DNA of 64,000 nt from Methylolobus aquaticus (GTDB lineage: Bacteria > Pseudomonadota > Gammaproteobacteria > Methylococcales > Methylococcaceae), in contig SEYW01000003.1 in assembly GCA_004168015.1 (NCBI GenBank), positions 124,001 to 188,000 on the forward strand, written 5' to 3'. This document shows positions 33,032 through 40,703 of this stretch, in pieces. A program made the translations under genes and the position numbers. The number at the start of each line of letters is the position of its first letter. The stretch's first letter is position 1. The notes under the pieces were generated by a model. The model worked only from the letters and a program-made list of their open reading frames with translations. It ran no database searches and was not told where the DNA came from.

Positions 33032-33937
33032 TCAACCGGTTCGGGCCCTTATCTGGCGCACGACCCATTCAATGACCATAACGGCATGGTCCCACATCCG
33101 GCGAGCCGCAGCCGCAAGGACGTTCCCCGCATCCTTTGCCGTGAGGCGAGCCAGCCGACCGCCCCACGCACGGGCGGCGAACGGGGCACCGAAGGCACCG
33201 ACCAGTGCGCCGATCACCGTCATGCCGGAAAACCACGATTCGGCTTCCGGCGCAGGCGCGCTTGCCGGTGCAGCCGCACTGGACATCCCGGTTCGATCAA
33301 CATCCGCGGGCGCCAACACCTGAGTCGGCGCAGGCCCCGGGCCGTAGTGGTCCCGAATCACCTGATCGGTCAAGCCCGGAATGCTCGGAAACGGCGCACT
33401 GCCCTTACCGACGATCAGCTGTGCCTTCATGCCCTTTTCCATGTGCTGCGCGATATCGCAGTGCACCAGATAGGTCTTGTCCTCGTTGGGCAGGATCAGC
33501 GTGCCGCTGATCTTGGCCGGCCCGGTGACTTCAAGATGGAACATGCCCTTGTCGTACATGTACTTCGGCAGGCCATGCATCATCCATTGATGACGGATGT
33601 GATCCTCGTTGATGAAGTGCACGGTCAGCTTGGTGCAAGGCTCGAAGCGAAACTCCTGCTGGTCGAACGCGAACATCGTTCCGGGAAAATTCTTCGAATA
33701 CTTATGCCCGGCGCGTACCGTCACTTCCTTGGTCGCGGCGATCTTGCTACATCCATCCGGCAGGCGATCTTTGTTCTGCCCCATGATCATGCCGCCATCC
33801 ATATCCATCAAATGGCCGTCACCATGATCCATCAGCATCGTGTGTTCGACGATTTCGTTGGATTCACCGGCAGGGTAAGCCGTCGTCGAAACGGCCGCGA
33901 CAGCAGAGGCCAGGAGTAAGCGTCTGAGCGTGTTCAT
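33032..33937 (-). CDS. Exported single-domain cupredoxin with C-terminal membrane anchor
   Basis: 301 residues. A signal peptide (about 1-23) is followed by a Met/His-rich stretch (residues 31-53, with HTMLMDHGDGHLMDMDG) that could bind copper loosely. The cupredoxin fold covers about 66-178. Type-1 copper ligands can be placed as His116 (HIRHQW), Cys160 (YLVHCD), His165 and Met170, with Cys-His-Met spacing 5 and 5. A Pro/Ala-rich linker leads to a hydrophobic segment (about 236-255) and a basic tail. It is the last gene of a three-gene copper cluster, eight bases after the multicopper oxidase. A TTG at 33949 would overlap that gene. Likely role: periplasmic electron carrier or copper donor; inferred. 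Confidence 0.8.
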   Translation of the reverse strand: MNTLRRLLLASAVAAVSTTAYPAGESNEIVEHTMLMDHGDGHLMDMDGGMIMGQNKDRLPDGCSKIAATKEVTVRAGHKYSKNFPGTMFAFDQQEFRFEPCTKLTVHFINEDHIRHQWMMHGLPKYMYDKGMFHLEVTGPAKISGTLILPNEDKTYLVHCDIAQHMEKGMKAQLIVGKGSAPFPSIPGLTDQVIRDHYGPGPAPTQVLAPADVDRTGMSSAAAPASAPAPEAESWFSGMTVIGALVGAFGAPFAARAWGGRLARLTAKDAGNVLAAAARRMWDHAVMVIEWVVRQIRARTG

Positions 33938-33945
33938 CGGGAATC

Positions 33946-35694
33946 TCAACCGGAAGTCTTGCTACGGAACTGGGTGATGAACTGGTTGGAAAGCGCCATC
34001 ACTCGCTCACGGTGAACAAACAAGAAGTAACCCAAGGTGCCCAACAAAAGGCCAAAGAACAGGTTTCCCCAGGTGCCTGAAGCGGATGCGGCCGGTGCGG
34101 CGGCAGTCGCAGTCGGAGTTGCCGCCGGCGCGGCCGGAACCTCGGTTTCGGGCAGAGCCAGACTGCCCCAGTCATCCGCCCATTCCTGCCAGACCGGTAC
34201 TTTCTTTTCCCAGAATTCCTTCGTGAAGTACGGCTTGAGGTCCATCCCGTGAGTCTTGGGAAGCCCCTTGTCATCGATGTACTGCTTGTAGACCAACAAG
34301 CTGATGCTGCCACCCTCGCCGACCCCATCGGTTGTAAAGGCCTTCTCGGTATGGTCGTGGAACATCCATATGCCCGACCCGAAACTGTGCAGGCCATCGT
34401 TGGTGGTGTTGATCTCGAGATCCAGTCGCTGCGCGGGGGCCATGGCGTATACGTCGCGCGTCACGCGCGCCTCGGGCCGCTGCGGCACACCGTCATAGTG
34501 GGTTTCAGTCGCCTTGTGACCATGGATATGCAAGGCCAGGCTCTCCGTATGCCCATTCAAAATGCGCAATTTAATCTTCTGATTGGGCTCGGCCACGATC
34601 AGCGACTCGCGCAATGTGTACGGAAATGCACGACCATTCAGCAAGTAGTAGTCATCCGTCGCGTCCGTGATGTCGTATTCCTGGTTGATTGCCCGGGCGA
34701 TCAGACGCGGGTCGTTGTACGACTGCGTCAGCTTGTGCAGTTCCTTGTCGACCGACTGGTAGTGGATGTCGTATTCCTGTTGATACTCCGCAGCAACGGC
34801 CGCGGACGGGTGCCGTACTTGCCCGGCCCCGACGTTCAGGGTCTGGACCCAGTTGTTCGGACGGTTTTCCTCCACGACCAACATGCCCGCCAATCCCATC
34901 GGAATGTGGGTGTGCGGCTGCACGTGGCAGTGGTAATACATGGTGCCGGCCTGACGCGGCTTGATCACATAGGTCTTGCTCTGACCCGGCATGACGTCCA
35001 TCTGACTCGTCTGTCCGACACCGTCATTGCCGTCGCCGCTGTGATCCATGAATGGATGATCGACGCCATGCAGATGGATGGAATGCGGGAAGTAGTGGCT
35101 GTTCTCGAGCGTGATCCACACGACATCGCCCTGCTCCACGCGAATCACCGGAGCCGGTGCCCTGAGATACGGATTGGCTTCAGCGCTGGCGAAACTCTTC
35201 GTGGACATATCGCGCGTCTTCGGGGCGAATACCCAGAAGGCGGGCTGGATGCCGGGCGCCACGTCGAAGGTTGGCACGACGCCCGGGAAGTCGGGCGAGT
35301 GCCCGTTGACTTCGATAACTTCCAGCTTGATCACGATATGGTCGGGGTCGCCGTCCCCGTCGATATCGTTCGTCTTACTGATGGCGTCCGCAGCGAGCTG
35401 CGTATCCATCAAGGTCTGCATGGAGATATTGTTCGTGCCCTTCACGAACGCCGCAATGTCGGCAGGATTGTCCGGATCGCACACCCGCGATTCCTGGATC
35501 GCAACGCCCTCGAGGGTTTGCGCATCGCGCCAGATCGAAGGTGTTCCGGTGTCACAGAACGGCTCCGATTTGCCGGGCGCCACTTTGGCGCTCGGCGGAG
35601 GCATATTGACGGCACTGGCGGGTGCGGCCCCGAGGGCGAGCATCGCACCGGCGAGGAAAGCAAACGAGCGATTGATCATCTTGCACGGGGCCAT
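33946..35694 (-). CDS. Two-domain multicopper oxidase, exported and membrane-anchored
   Basis: 582 residues from the ATG at 35694 (or 567 from the ATG at 35679, which begins directly before the signal peptide). Domain 1 has His204, HLHG 207-210 and HCH 255-257, His261 and Met266: a complete type-1 site plus half a trinuclear site. Domain 2 has HIHGH 389-393 and HDH 446-448 but no Cys, so only trinuclear ligands. A DxDxDGDxD calcium-loop-like motif lies at 110-118. An Ala/Pro/Thr linker (about 517-540) precedes a C-terminal transmembrane helix (about 543-560). Four HxH motifs point to O2 reduction to water; nitrite reductase is less likely. The electron donor and substrate are unknown. Confidence 0.85.
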   Translation of the reverse strand: MAPCKMINRSFAFLAGAMLALGAAPASAVNMPPPSAKVAPGKSEPFCDTGTPSIWRDAQTLEGVAIQESRVCDPDNPADIAAFVKGTNNISMQTLMDTQLAADAISKTNDIDGDGDPDHIVIKLEVIEVNGHSPDFPGVVPTFDVAPGIQPAFWVFAPKTRDMSTKSFASAEANPYLRAPAPVIRVEQGDVVWITLENSHYFPHSIHLHGVDHPFMDHSGDGNDGVGQTSQMDVMPGQSKTYVIKPRQAGTMYYHCHVQPHTHIPMGLAGMLVVEENRPNNWVQTLNVGAGQVRHPSAAVAAEYQQEYDIHYQSVDKELHKLTQSYNDPRLIARAINQEYDITDATDDYYLLNGRAFPYTLRESLIVAEPNQKIKLRILNGHTESLALHIHGHKATETHYDGVPQRPEARVTRDVYAMAPAQRLDLEINTTNDGLHSFGSGIWMFHDHTEKAFTTDGVGEGGSISLLVYKQYIDDKGLPKTHGMDLKPYFTKEFWEKKVPVWQEWADDWGSLALPETEVPAAPAATPTATAAAPAASASGTWGNLFFGLLLGTLGYFLFVHRERVMALSNQFITQFRSKTSG

Positions 35695-35777
35695 TGCGGC
35701 GTAGTGTGTGTAGCGCTAATTACGTCGGGCGACGTCCCTATCGTTCTCCCGAAGTGTCTCTCCAGATCGGGCAGGGA

Positions 35778-36365
35778 TCAGGCTGCCTTCTTTTTCTTCA
35801 GCAACTTGTCCACGATCGCCTGGAAGGCCGGATTCGACAGATAAAGGATGTAACCGACGGCAATCAGGATCACGGCGATCACGATGAACGTGGTGGTCGA
35901 GATTCCGCTGGCCGATGCACCCACCTTGAACGGGACGTGCGCGTCGACTTTTTGTCCTTCGTTCACCAGCGTGACATGCGCCAGGTAAGGACCGGGTTCC
36001 GTCAGGTTCAGCTGTGTGTTGTAGGTCCCCTTGGGGTTCTTCGTGGGCGCTTGGTAGAACACACGGGTGCCGGCAGGCTCCTTCGTAATCTCGAACTCCA
36101 CCGTCATCTCGCGCAGCGCTTTGCCCTCGTAGTCGAATACGATGGTGACCGGGCCCACTTCGGGAATGTCGTTACAGTACTCTGTGGTTCCGCCGATCTG
36201 CGGCTGATAAGCCGTGAAATGCACCAAGTGCGGCCCGACGTTAATCCGGCACTTGTCTGCCTCGACGCTCGCACCGCCATGGGCCCAGCTGGCCGACGGG
36301 GCCAATGCAGCCAGGAACAGGGTGATAACGAGCAGTCCGCCCCTTATAAAATTGGATGTACGCAT
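35778..36365 (-). CDS. Unknown exported protein with C-terminal anchor, first gene of the copper cluster
   Basis: 195 residues. Signal peptide to about residue 28 (cleavage near SWA-HGG), then a mature start HGGASVEADKC, a beta-rich domain of about 115 residues, a transmembrane helix (about 159-177, TFIVIAVILIAVGYILYL) and a Lys-rich cytoplasmic tail (LLKKKKAA). Two Cys (39, 64) and His29, His46 and His49 are conserved-looking and might form a disulfide or bind copper. I do not recognise a named family; the layout recalls FixH-like or copper-chaperone accessory proteins. It lies 83 bases upstream of the multicopper oxidase on the same strand. Confidence 0.7.
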   Translation of the reverse strand: MRTSNFIRGGLLVITLFLAALAPSASWAHGGASVEADKCRINVGPHLVHFTAYQPQIGGTTEYCNDIPEVGPVTIVFDYEGKALREMTVEFEITKEPAGTRVFYQAPTKNPKGTYNTQLNLTEPGPYLAHVTLVNEGQKVDAHVPFKVGASASGISTTTFIVIAVILIAVGYILYLSNPAFQAIVDKLLKKKKAA

Positions 36366-36547
36366 AAGATCTTCCCTCGCTTGCAGTTCAAGGTTGTTGT
36401 ATTTCTCTATCCGGAACTCAGAACAGAGTGTCTGGCTGGTCGTACGCTACGCGCTCGGAATGCCCGGATGCCGTTTCACCCGGCCTCAGCTTGAGGAGTG
36501 GCGACTATACATTAGCGTGCGCTCAACGGTCAAAACCTGACGTTTTG

Positions 36548-39500
36548 TCAACCATTGTCGTGCGAATGCCGTGCATCGAAGAGCTTCGAGAACGAAACGT
36601 ACACGGATGGTATGACAAATACTGTCAGAAAGGTTCCAATCGTCATGCCGCCGACGATAACCCAGCCGATCTGCTGTCGGCTCTCGGCGCCCGCCCCGGT
36701 CGCCAGGGCCAGCGGGAGAGCACCGAGGATCATCGTCAGCGAGGTCATGACTATCGGGCGCAACCTGAGCACCGCGGCAGTCGCCGCGGCATCGACGGCC
36801 GCCATGCCCGAGCGCGCGAGCTGGTTGGCGAACTCGACGATCAGGATGCCGTTCTTGGTGATCAGCCCGACGAGCATCACGAGGCCGATCTGACTGTAGA
36901 CGTTGAGCGTGCCCCCGCTGAGCTTGAGCGCGAGCAGCGCCCCGATCAGGGCGAGTGGCACCGTCAGCAGGATGATCAGCGGATCGGCGAAGCTCTCGAA
37001 CTGCGCCGCCAGCACCAGGTAGATGAAGGCCAGCGCAAACAGGAAAGTCAGGTACAGAGTTTGGCTGGACTCGCGAAATTCGAGCGACTGCCCGGTCAGA
37101 TCGGTCTTGAAGCTGGGCGGCAGCAACTCCCGCGCAACGCGGTCGAACTCGGCCAGCGCCTGCCCCAGCGTAAACCCCGGCGCGAGATTCGCGGAGACGG
37201 TCGCAGCCCGCAGGCGATTGAAGTGATTCAGTTCCTTGGCCGAGGCCAGCGTCTGCAAATCAACCACATTCGCCAGCTGTACGAGCTCGCCCTTTTCACT
37301 GCGCAAGTAGATGGAGAGGATGTCGCCCGGCACGGCGCGCTCGCTGTCCGCCAAGCGCACGATCACATCGTACTGTTCTCCCTCCCGCTTGAAACGGGTC
37401 ACCTGCCGGCCGCCGAGCAGCGTCTGCAGCGTGCGCCCGATCTCATCGATATCGACCCCGAGGTCGGCCGCCTTCTCCCGGTTCACGAACACGCGGATCT
37501 GCGGCTTGTCCATCTTCAGGTCGCTGTCGACGTTCATGATCCCGGGAAGCGTTGCGACCTTGCGCATGAAGCTGCCCACGCGCTCGTCCAGTTCCGCGTA
37601 GGTCGGCCCCTGGATCACGAACTGAACCGGCGGGTTCCGGAAATTCTGCCCGAGGGACGGAGGATTGATGGGAAAGGCGAGCACCCCCGGCAGGCTCGTG
37701 AATTTCGGCATCAGCTCGGCGGCGATTTGCTGCTGCGACCGTGTGCGCTCGCCCCATGGCACGAGCCGAACGAAGGCCAGCGCACTGTTGACCGGATTCG
37801 GCCGTTCCAACCCGGGCGCGACGACCATGAAATAGCTGCTGACTTCCGGGATGACGGCGACGAATTTTTCGATCTGCGCCGCGTACGCATCGGTGTAGTC
37901 GATCGATGCACCCTCGGGGGCGGAGATCGCACCGATGATGTTGCCGCGATCCTCCTGCGGCGACAGTTCCGACGGCAGCGCCGCAAACAGCCGGTAGGTC
38001 ACATAGCCCATCAGGCCCATCAACAGGAAAGTCCAGAGACCATGGCGCAGCCACACGCGCAGCAGCGCCTCGAAGCCCCGCATCATCCGTCCGGGCACGG
38101 CGGGCTCGTGGCCGCCGGCCTCTGGCCCGCTCGCGCGCAGCAGGCGGGAGCACATCATCGGCGTGAGCGTCAACGCCACGAAACCGGACACCAGCACCGC
38201 GCAGGATACCGCCAGCGCGAATTCCGAGAACAATCGCCCGGTGTTGCCGCTCATGAAGGCCAGTGGCGTGAAGACCGAGGCCAAGGTCAACGTCATCGCG
38301 ATCACGGCGAAGGCGATCTCCCGACTACCCTCCAGCGCCGCGGGAAACGGCTTCATGCCGGATTCGATGCGCCGGAATATGTTCTCCATCATGACGATCG
38401 CGTCGTCGACCACGAGACCGATCGCCAGCACCAGCGCCAGCAGCGTCAGGATGTTGACGGAAAAGTCGAACACATAAAGAAAGATGAACGCACCGATCAG
38501 CGACACCGGAATCGTCACGAAGGGAATCAGCAGCGTGCGGAACGAGCGCAGGAACACGAATGTGACGGCGAGCACCAAGCCCAGCGCTTCGAACAACGCC
38601 TTGTAGACGGCACGGATCGACTCCTCGATGAACAGCGAGGTATCGAAGGAAACCCGCAGCGTCATGCCCTCCGGCAGCGTCGCATTGATCTTCGGCAATT
38701 CATCCTTGACCAGCCGCGCGACTTCGAGCGTGTTGGCCGTCGCCTGTTTGACGACACCCAGTCCCACTGCCGGATTGCCGTTCACGCGCACGATGTTGCG
38801 CTCGTCCTCGGAGCCGATCTCGGCACGTCCGACGTCGGTCAGACGAATCGGATAGCCGTTGACCTCGCGGATGATCAGCGCATTGAATTGCTCGGGCGTC
38901 CGCAAGTCGGTTTCGCTGAAGACCGTCATCTCCCGCATCAGGCCCTCGATACGCCCGCCCGGGAGTTCGACGTTGCGACGCTGCAGTGCGTTCTCGACAT
39001 CCCCCACGGTCAGACCGTGCGCGGCGAGCCGGTCCCGATCGAGCCAGATGCGCATCGCGTAGCGCCGCTCGCCGCCGATGATCACATTCGAGACACCGGG
39101 CAGGGTCTGCAGGCGATCCTGCACAAAGCGGTCGGCAATGTCGGTGATCTCGAGCGCACTGTGGCGTTCGCTGGAGAACGCCAACCAGAGTACCGGCTGC
39201 GCGTCCGCATCGATCTTGCTGATGACCGGCTCTTCGATTTCCTCCGGCAGGCGGGCGCGCACGCGCGACACGCGGTCGCGCACGTCGGCCGCCGCCGAGT
39301 CCGGATCGCGTGCCAGGGTGAATTCGACCGAGATCCGGCTGACCTCCTCGCGACTGACCGACTTCAGAATCTTGATGCCCTCGATTCCGGACAGCGAATC
39401 CTCGAGCGGGCGAGTCACCTGGCTCTCGATGACCTCGGCGCTGGCGCCCTTGTAGACCGTGTTCACCGAGACCACCGAGGCGTCGATATCGGGATACTCG

Positions 39501-39604
39501 CGGACCGGCAGGCGTTCGAAGCACATGGCCCCGAGCAGGATCAGGATCAGGCTGGCGACGGTCGCCAGAACGGGACGTCGGATCGAGAGATCGGACAGGA
39601 CCAT
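36548..39604 (-). CDS. RND multidrug efflux pump, HAE1 family (AcrB-like)
   Basis: 1,018 residues. Twelve transmembrane helices in the 1+5+1+5 RND pattern with two large periplasmic loops. The start SDLSIRRPVLATVASLILILLG and the proton-relay helix GLVVDDAIVMMENIFRR (paired Asp) are typical. It exports hydrophobic compounds with a periplasmic adaptor and an outer-membrane channel. The ATG at 39604 is seven bases after the adaptor stop. No TolC-like gene is in the cluster. The copper cluster begins 182 bases downstream on the same strand, but a functional link is not shown; the HAE1 features argue against a CusA-type metal pump. Confidence 0.93.
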   Translation of the reverse strand: MVLSDLSIRRPVLATVASLILILLGAMCFERLPVREYPDIDASVVSVNTVYKGASAEVIESQVTRPLEDSLSGIEGIKILKSVSREEVSRISVEFTLARDPDSAAADVRDRVSRVRARLPEEIEEPVISKIDADAQPVLWLAFSSERHSALEITDIADRFVQDRLQTLPGVSNVIIGGERRYAMRIWLDRDRLAAHGLTVGDVENALQRRNVELPGGRIEGLMREMTVFSETDLRTPEQFNALIIREVNGYPIRLTDVGRAEIGSEDERNIVRVNGNPAVGLGVVKQATANTLEVARLVKDELPKINATLPEGMTLRVSFDTSLFIEESIRAVYKALFEALGLVLAVTFVFLRSFRTLLIPFVTIPVSLIGAFIFLYVFDFSVNILTLLALVLAIGLVVDDAIVMMENIFRRIESGMKPFPAALEGSREIAFAVIAMTLTLASVFTPLAFMSGNTGRLFSEFALAVSCAVLVSGFVALTLTPMMCSRLLRASGPEAGGHEPAVPGRMMRGFEALLRVWLRHGLWTFLLMGLMGYVTYRLFAALPSELSPQEDRGNIIGAISAPEGASIDYTDAYAAQIEKFVAVIPEVSSYFMVVAPGLERPNPVNSALAFVRLVPWGERTRSQQQIAAELMPKFTSLPGVLAFPINPPSLGQNFRNPPVQFVIQGPTYAELDERVGSFMRKVATLPGIMNVDSDLKMDKPQIRVFVNREKAADLGVDIDEIGRTLQTLLGGRQVTRFKREGEQYDVIVRLADSERAVPGDILSIYLRSEKGELVQLANVVDLQTLASAKELNHFNRLRAATVSANLAPGFTLGQALAEFDRVARELLPPSFKTDLTGQSLEFRESSQTLYLTFLFALAFIYLVLAAQFESFADPLIILLTVPLALIGALLALKLSGGTLNVYSQIGLVMLVGLITKNGILIVEFANQLARSGMAAVDAAATAAVLRLRPIVMTSLTMILGALPLALATGAGAESRQQIGWVIVGGMTIGTFLTVFVIPSVYVSFSKLFDARHSHDNG

Positions 39605-39611
39605 CGGGGAA

Positions 39612-40703
39612 TCAGCCCTGGGGTTCCAGCACCGACACGGTGGCGCCGTCGCGCAACTTGGTCTGGCCATCGGTCACGACACGATCGCCGGGAGCCAGTC
39701 CCGACATGATCTCCACCGCGCCCTGCCGATGACGGCCGGTCGTAACCTCGACCATGTTCACCTTGTCGCCGGCAAGGCGGAACACGTAGGCGCTGCTGCT
39801 CTTCTGCACGATGGCCTGTTCGGGCACGAACAGCGCCTCGCGCGTGCCGGCGAGCCCGAGCCGGATCCGCGTGAACATACCCGGCCGCAGCAGCATCCTG
39901 TCGTTCGGCAACCGCGCCCGGATCCGCACCGTTCGCGTCGCCTCGTCCAGGCGCGGATCGATCGCAAAGATCCTTCCGGCAAAGGTCCGGCCAGGGTAAG
40001 CCTCGACGCTGGCGGTAACTGCCAGCCCGTTGCCTATCGAACCCGAAAACTTCTCGGGAATCTTGAAATCGAGTTTGACCGGATCGACCGCCTCCAGATT
40101 GACGAGATCCTGGCCAACGGAAACGTAGTCGCCCACGCTGACTACGCGCAAACCGATAATGCCGTCGAACGGAGCCCGGATCACCATCTTCGCAAGGCGA
40201 ACCCGCTCGCGCTCGACCGTGGCATCGGAGACCTTCAGCTTGGCCAGTACCTCGTCGTACTGCTGCACGCTGGTCAGGTTCTTGCGGCGCATCTCCTTGA
40301 CCCGCTCGAAGTTCTGACGGTCCAGCAACTGCTGCGCTTCAGCCTGGGCCAGGGTGGCTCGGATCTCATCGGCGTTCAGCACGAACAGCTCATCGCCAGT
40401 CCGAACCTTCGCGCCTTCGGTGAAGCGAATTGCCTCGATGCGGGCAGCCAGTTCCGGACGAATCACCACCGACTCGTTCGCCGCCAGCGTGCCGACCGCG
40501 GTAATTTCGTCATCCACGCGCTCCTTCGAGACCCTCGCCACACGGACGCCGACGGCCGGCGGCGGCCCTGGGGATGGTGGCGTCGGCGCTGCCTGCTGCT
40601 CAGCGGGGAGATCGCCCGGGGCGACGGTTTGCCAATACCGCCACAGCCCCAGACCGGCAGCAAGTGCCAGCAGGGCGGTCAGCGCGAGAATTCGGGTCCG
40701 CAT
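39612..40703 (-). CDS. RND efflux periplasmic adaptor (membrane fusion protein)
   Basis: 363 residues. An N-terminal signal or anchor helix (about 5-22) has no lipobox Cys. A Pro-rich linker, lipoyl halves (VIRPELAARIEAI and APFDGIIGLRVVSVGDYV), a short alpha-hairpin between them and beta-barrel regions follow. It links the inner-membrane pump to an outer-membrane channel. First gene of the adaptor-pump pair; promoter would lie in the 188 bases up to grx. Confidence 0.92.
   Translation of the reverse strand: MRTRILALTALLALAAGLGLWRYWQTVAPGDLPAEQQAAPTPPSPGPPPAVGVRVARVSKERVDDEITAVGTLAANESVVIRPELAARIEAIRFTEGAKVRTGDELFVLNADEIRATLAQAEAQQLLDRQNFERVKEMRRKNLTSVQQYDEVLAKLKVSDATVERERVRLAKMVIRAPFDGIIGLRVVSVGDYVSVGQDLVNLEAVDPVKLDFKIPEKFSGSIGNGLAVTASVEAYPGRTFAGRIFAIDPRLDEATRTVRIRARLPNDRMLLRPGMFTRIRLGLAGTREALFVPEQAIVQKSSSAYVFRLAGDKVNMVEVTTGRHRQGAVEIMSGLAPGDRVVTDGQTKLRDGATVSVLEPQG

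Follow-up and report, generated by a model that had tools for sequence, protein, structure and literature searches.

A conserved PmoD–multicopper oxidase–cupredoxin cassette in Methylolobus aquaticus and other bacteria that run copper membrane monooxygenases

What do three adjacent genes for copper proteins with apparent membrane anchors do in Methylolobus aquaticus, and do they belong together? We analyzed a 64,000-nucleotide stretch of this genome (contig SEYW01000003.1, positions 124,001 to 188,000; hereafter the window), in which a reading of the sequence had proposed these genes as a dedicated periplasmic electron-transfer unit (the original prediction). Three open reading frames were confirmed on the minus strand, running from 36365 to 33032 in the order PmoD homologue, multicopper oxidase (MCO) and type-1 (T1) cupredoxin. 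A gap of 83 bp lies between the first two; the stop codon of the MCO overlaps the start of the cupredoxin frame as opened by TTG (33949) and lies 8 bp from an ATG at 33937, which is probably the start used. The results showed that the trio is a conserved cassette of bacteria running a copper membrane monooxygenase (CuMMO), namely particulate methane monooxygenase (pMMO), ammonia monooxygenase or hydrocarbon monooxygenase, and of this identity and conservation we are nearly certain. Because one member is a PmoD homologue and the organism carries pMMO, the locus is to be read as a CuMMO-associated unit, not as one for copper resistance or for electron transfer in general; this unit probably supplies the CuMMO with copper or electrons.

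The 195-residue protein had a single PDB match, PmoD of Methylocystis (6CPD), with E 6.5e-12 from the single sequence and E 6.5e-27 over 113 positions from a profile, and is on this basis a PmoD homologue. It shares with the PmoD/AmoD family (PMC6189053; 6CPD) the sequence family, a signal peptide, the two invariant cysteines (C39 and C64) and a C-terminal transmembrane helix. The His and Cys residues noticed earlier at the start of the mature protein turned out to be the PmoD copper motif C39-H46-H49-C64; motif-scan rows with cysteines from a signal peptide or start extension were ignored. The motif reads CRINVGPHLVH, with Leu where the CuA class (Cx7MxHxnC) has Met, so that a CuA-type PmoD was rejected and the protein was assigned to the Cx9HxnC class, whose members bind copper without forming CuA (PMC6189053). 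It further differs from the described family in accompanying an MCO and a T1 cupredoxin outside the pmo operon. The MCO-linked PmoDs stem from at least two PmoD clades, as if the unit required such a partner and had not simply inherited one. A second PmoD, of Cx8MHxnC type, is encoded on contig C32 of the same genome (L002:1396-2641; L, G, C, f and g labels are our own), where its gene overlaps copC. Two g15 genomes (L061:5762-7513, L062:4800-6702) also carry a second PmoD, about 60% identical and of the cassette clade, divergent beside a lone pmoC.

The MCO consists of two cupredoxin domains, with a T1 site in domain 1 only and trinuclear histidines in both. Its T1 ligands (H204/C256/H263/M266) and all eight trinuclear-cluster histidines, the latter unmentioned in the original prediction, were present. 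By sequence and by fold it was closest to the Nitrosomonas europaea blue copper oxidase 3G5W and the metagenomic laccase 2ZWN, and NirK was structurally close. The two-domain build with T1 in domain 1, the C-x6-H-x2-M spacing and the division of trinuclear histidines between the domains are the same as in 3G5W and 2ZWN, whereas the window MCO is about 24% identical to them and has three further parts: an extension at the N-terminus that holds an invariant DxDxDGDPD loop and a pair of conserved cysteines, a stretch between the domains, and a membrane helix at the C-terminus. The pair (Cys47/Cys72) and the loop lie in a region without an assigned domain; an FG-GAP match to the extension was weak (Pfam, E 0.09). 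The copper ligands were intact in 103 of 112 homologues, and six others differed only by Leu for the axial Met. Leu occupies the axial T1 position in MCOs of genus g9 (L023, L024, L026, L028, L029, L077), as in high-potential laccases. Assignment to CopA/PcoA (TIGR01480; 47.1 bits against a cut-off of 478.95) or CueO (35.2 against 525) was rejected on these scores and on the differing partners, and NirK (43.1 against 296.3) on the score and the full trinuclear set. CopA/PcoA and CueO are, like the window MCO, periplasmic copper oxidases, and the cuprous oxidase activity proposed below is modelled on them; the cassette nevertheless has different partners and contains neither copB nor a copper ATPase, which upholds the earlier view that its layout is unlike copAB or cueO.

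The cupredoxin also carried a complete T1 set (H120/C164/H169/M174; a His followed by Cys-x4-His-x4-Met) on a cupredoxin fold, so that both T1 sites of the original prediction were found. Its AlphaFold2 model was closest in fold to auracyanin and to the cupredoxin domain of the NirK 2DV6, and its Pfam Cu-oxidase_2 score of 18.9 fell narrowly below the cut-off of 20.4. The Cys and three conserved His were intact in 89 of 90 homologues. Fused MCO– or NirK–cupredoxin proteins (9CCK, N. maritimus; 2DV6, Hyphomicrobium) likewise join a two-domain copper oxidase fold to an extra T1 cupredoxin, whereas the window proteins are separate, predicted to be membrane-anchored and accompanied by PmoD. The cupredoxin tail is extremely His-rich in Nitrosomonas, and cupredoxins of ammonia-oxidizing bacteria (L103:9556-10578, L058:6306-7307) have a His-rich N-terminal region of about 100 residues. 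Those of family f7 (L037:3362-4210, L038:2531-3361) carry N-terminal EGKCG/EGSCG repeats, which we take to resemble the bufferin-type substrates of MNIO (PF05114) enzymes; both f7 genomes encode one PF05114 enzyme, on another contig.

Export signals and C-terminal anchors, which had been claimed for all three proteins, were present, but not with equal strength. N-terminal hydrophobic segments were visible by eye in each, with hydropathy maxima over 19-residue windows of 1.83 for PmoD, 1.81 for the MCO and a weak 1.09 for the cupredoxin. The C-terminal segment was strong in PmoD (2.55, residues 158-176) and borderline in the MCO (1.59, 542-560) and the cupredoxin (1.55, 240-258). AlphaFold2 modelled two helices in each of the latter, at 541-560 and 562-580 for the MCO and at 240-262 and 271-304 for the cupredoxin. 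Basic tails follow (KLLKKKKAA, FRSKTSG and RQIRARTG). A clear C-terminal hydrophobic segment was also found in 91 of 97 PmoD, 76 of 108 MCO and 80 of 90 cupredoxin homologues.

Among 61 relatives, 58 had the MCO, 57 the cupredoxin and 59 a PmoD; the conservation of the three genes across these relatives and 55 named loci rules out chance. The trio was contiguous in 32 of the 35 family f1 genomes with the MCO and was broken by contig ends in the remaining three, which supports the dedicated unit originally proposed. Homologues lying mostly apart, or an absence of transmembrane helices, would have spoken against that proposal; neither was seen, apart from the split arrangements given below. The MCO and cupredoxin genes were adjacent in 86 of 106 loci with room. 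PmoA was present in 41 of the 61 relatives, every one of which had the MCO, and the MCO-negative relatives (G001, G030 and G052) were all PmoA-negative (Fisher probability about 0.03, by hand). One of these, G052 (genus g20; a single contig, 99% complete), had no PmoA, MCO, PmoD or cupredoxin. The window genome itself bears pmoC, pmoA and pmoB on another contig (C42). Across 398 phylum-wide genomes, a full-length MCO orthologue was confined to the two gammaproteobacterial genomes of the set that are CuMMO-positive, namely that of the window and the amoCAB-bearing G162 (59% identical). One further genome (G443) had a partial 45% relative with no recognised partner genes. In G247, which belongs to another class, bears a CuMMO and has nine PmoD matches, no MCO was found at E 1e-15.

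The cassette physically continues CuMMO operons elsewhere. A pmoB–PmoD–MCO(–cupredoxin) run was found in ten contigs (L034-L038, L093, L094, L106, L142 and, with a 0.9 kb gap, L095). In families f6 (L034-L036) and f7 (L037-L038), which belong to the window's order, the genes are closely spaced on a single strand in the order pmoC-pmoA-pmoB-PmoD-MCO-cupredoxin. Family f6 is consistent with Cycloclasticus, a name that is unconfirmed here; cultivated Cycloclasticus lack particulate hydrocarbon monooxygenase (pHMO) and other members possess it (PMC12510462). A metagenome-assembled genome (MAG) of the Binatia (L094) had the same six-gene order, as did a Pseudomonadales MAG (L093) for the part that begins with pmoA. 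Porticoccaceae (L106) and gammaproteobacterial (L142) MAGs showed pmoA-pmoB-PmoD-MCO up to the contig end, a Hyphomicrobiales MAG (L095) showed pmoA-pmoB, two PmoDs and the MCO before its contig end, and L127 had the order MCO-cupredoxin-pmoCAB. In the MCO tree, most deep branches were operon-linked (L094, L106, L093, L095, f7 and f6) and the stand-alone forms of methanotroph families were mostly nested inside; although some deep forks were unresolved, this topology suggests that the operon-linked state may be ancestral.

A joint loss of ligands was found in G060, a pmoA/pmoC-bearing genome whose only cassette lies at L047:3363-6197 (G060:C73). Its frames are open, yet the MCO has ALFG in place of HLHG and has lost HCH and HDH, making this the single genome with lost MCO ligands; the cupredoxin lacks the T1 Cys and His, and the PmoD motif lacks its Met. 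Since ligands were lost in all three proteins, the case suggests that the three work together. Third codon positions still change fastest in this cassette. The cupredoxin signal peptide is apparently lost, so the copy may be decaying.

How might such a unit act? Copper handling is favoured because the cupredoxin N-terminus is Met/His-rich (His-rich in Nitrosomonas, with EGKCG repeats in f7), because this PmoD class binds copper without CuA, and because expression of a published pmoD–MCO locus (MCA2130) falls without copper (PMC6688271). The T1 cupredoxin, its pairing with the MCO and the precedent of the fused proteins 2DV6 and 9CCK speak for electron transfer. We infer that a Cu(I)-oxidizing relay through cupredoxin and MCO unites the two, and a joint redox function fits since the MCO–cupredoxin pairing is strict and the ligand loss in G060 concerted. 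In this relay, PmoD, MCO and cupredoxin would sit together at the periplasmic membrane face; Cu(I) would be taken up by PmoD and the Met/His-rich cupredoxin tail; its electron would travel by way of the T1 sites, first that of the cupredoxin and then that of the MCO, to the trinuclear cluster, where O2 would be reduced to water; and the resulting Cu(II) would be released to, or kept from, the CuMMO. A tethered cuprous-oxidase relay would thus control the copper loading and redox state of the CuMMO, a reading we put forward tentatively and at somewhat less than even confidence. In CuMMO-free relatives it would serve another periplasmic copper use.

Several observations weigh against this relay. 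Cupredoxins with a full T1 site usually carry electrons and do not act as chaperones. No copper regulator or copper ATPase was found among the cassette neighbours, the RND pump next to it is of a multidrug-like type, and in the window genome the cassette is not near pmo. The genes also do not always travel together: they are mostly found side by side, but Nitrosomonas has the MCO–cupredoxin pair without an adjoining PmoD, and Methylovulum/Methylobacter/Methylomonas-type genomes have the MCO alone, with cupredoxin and PmoD elsewhere where checked. Finally, ten gammaproteobacterial MAGs, among them Halieaceae, Woeseiaceae and Lysobacterales, gave no PF02461 or PF04896 match, yet seven of them carried the cassette and three the MCO–cupredoxin pair; PF04896 was matched in 4 of 5 CuMMO-bearing MAGs searched alongside. 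MAG incompleteness may explain single cases but hardly all ten. Strict CuMMO exclusivity was thus rejected, and the CuMMO is therefore not the cassette's only client. Most of the ten MAGs carry PmoD, in conflict with the 2018 statement that every genome with PmoD has a CuMMO (PMC6189053).

The strongest competitor of the relay is an electron-transfer unit for CuMMO or respiration, which extends the original prediction to pMMO. Here the tethered cupredoxin, with PmoD, would provide the CuMMO with electrons drawn from a cytochrome or the quinol pool, and the MCO would be a side branch removing excess O2 or electrons. The fold neighbours of the cupredoxin (auracyanin and the NirK electron-transfer domain), the natural fusions to MCO or NirK, the strict adjacency, the operon linkage and the joint ligand loss in G060 all agree with it. 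Yet the unit contains no gene for a partner of quinol or of a cytochrome, an MCO that reduces O2 would take electrons away from the CuMMO, the Met/His/Cys-rich tails point to copper handling, and the cassette occurs without CuMMO, so we consider this reading rather unlikely.

CuMMO bacteria produce hydroxylamine and NO, and the MCO might oxidize or detoxify these by-products or nitrite, the cupredoxin taking up or delivering the electrons; the nearest solved MCOs include a Nitrosomonas enzyme, and NirK is structurally close. The trinuclear His set, complete unlike that of NirK, the missed NirK cut-off, the presence of the cassette in alkane-type CuMMO operons and CuMMO-free genomes, and the lack of recognised nitrogen-oxide genes beside it in the loci read, whose neighbours were partly annotated, make this improbable. 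Least probable of all is a structural or assembly factor for CuMMO with copper sites of secondary importance. The open frames and codon pattern of G060 after ligand loss and the very conserved non-ligand MCO stretch VEENRPNNWVQTFNVGAG would suit it, but ligands are intact in nearly all other homologues, CuMMO-free genomes have the cassette, and the G060 copy, its cupredoxin seemingly without a signal peptide, may be decaying. Alongside the cuprous-oxidase relay stands a broader scenario, possible though doubtful, which starts from a larger CuMMO system (pmoCABD-MCO-cupredoxin) as seen intact in Binatota and in alkane-type operons. The cassette would be the accessory half of this system and would provide the monooxygenase with electrons or with copper in a conditioned redox state; it would later have been relocated in methanotrophs and would survive alone in CuMMO-free gammaproteobacteria.

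Around the cassette, promoter and terminator scans of the locus gave numbers no higher than in shuffled sequence, and no structured RNA was found in the locus. The RND pump was rejected as a core part, being multidrug-like and present only in genera g1, g9 and g12 among the f1 genera examined. In L103, genes for an RND pump and an adaptor are found upstream of the MCO gene in divergent orientation.

Table 1. Features of the cassette and its surroundings in the window (all on the minus strand)
Feature	Positions	Basis
PmoD homologue, 195 aa; signal peptide, periplasmic copper-binding domain, C-terminal membrane helix, KKKK tail	35778..36365	PDB 6CPD match, hydropathy
PmoD copper motif C39-x6-H46-x2-H49 ... 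C64	36174..36251	Motif scan; Cx9HxnC class per PMC6189053
PmoD C-terminal transmembrane helix, residues 158-176	35838..35894	Hydropathy 2.55
Two-domain MCO, 582 aa; N-terminal extension and C-terminal helix	33946..35694	Pfam Cu-oxidase_3/2; 3G5W/2ZWN by sequence and fold
MCO N-terminal extension loop D-x-D-x-DGDPD, residues 110-118, Ca-binding-like	35341..35367	Invariant alignment columns
MCO domain 1 HSIHLH: T1 His204, trinuclear His207/His209	35068..35085	Alignment, ligand count
MCO domain 1 H255-C256-H257 ... H263 ... M266: T1 Cys/His/Met and T3 His	34897..34932	Spacing identical to 3G5W
MCO domain 2 HIHGH, residues 389-393, trinuclear ligands	34516..34530	Alignment, ligand count
MCO domain 2 HDH, residues 446-448, T3 ligands; domain without T1 Cys	34351..34359	Alignment
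MCO C-terminal hydrophobic helix, residues 541-560	34015..34074	AlphaFold2 helix; hydropathy 1.59, borderline
T1 cupredoxin, 305 aa as TTG frame, membrane-anchored (predicted)	33032..33949	AlphaFold2 pLDDT 80.7; fold matches
Cupredoxin N-terminal Met/His-rich segment HTMLMDHGDGHLMDMDGGMIMG; M48 invariant, M56 nearly invariant	33779..33844	Alignment
Cupredoxin T1 motif C164-DIAQ-H169-MEKG-M174, H120 upstream	33428..33460	Alignment of 90 homologues
Cupredoxin membrane helix 240-262, then amphipathic helix 271-304	33164..33232	AlphaFold2; hydropathy 1.55, borderline
Sigma-70-like promoter match, the region's only one, upstream of PmoD; weak	36504..36533	Count no higher than shuffles
RND permease and adaptor genes, upstream, outside the core unit	36548..40703	Neighbourhood comparison

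The layout had been thought to be new, which holds for only part of it. The proximity of PmoD genes to multicopper oxidases was noted in 2018 (PMC6189053), and pmoD adjoins an MCO gene in M. capsulatus (MCA2130) and Methylacidiphilum Kam1 (PMC6688271), side by side as in the window; MCA2130 is, we infer, the orthologue of the window gene. The cupredoxin partner, the CuMMO-operon form and the distribution are not described there, and for Binatia only pmoD is mentioned (PMC8262859). In the main texts of open-licence papers we found neither the partnership with the cupredoxin nor the six-gene CuMMO operon described, nor the Binatia cassette or the CuMMO-free occurrences, and literature on MCA2129 and on pHMO with a copper oxidase yielded nothing on the cassette. 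Purified CuMMOs lose most of their activity (PMC6189053), and it is an unsolved question how these enzymes obtain their copper and electrons inside the cell. Ligand-less G060 and the CuMMO-free genomes provide natural test cases. The anchored trio offers concrete candidates for the missing components, a candidacy that draws on its physical continuation of CuMMO operons in several lineages of two phyla.

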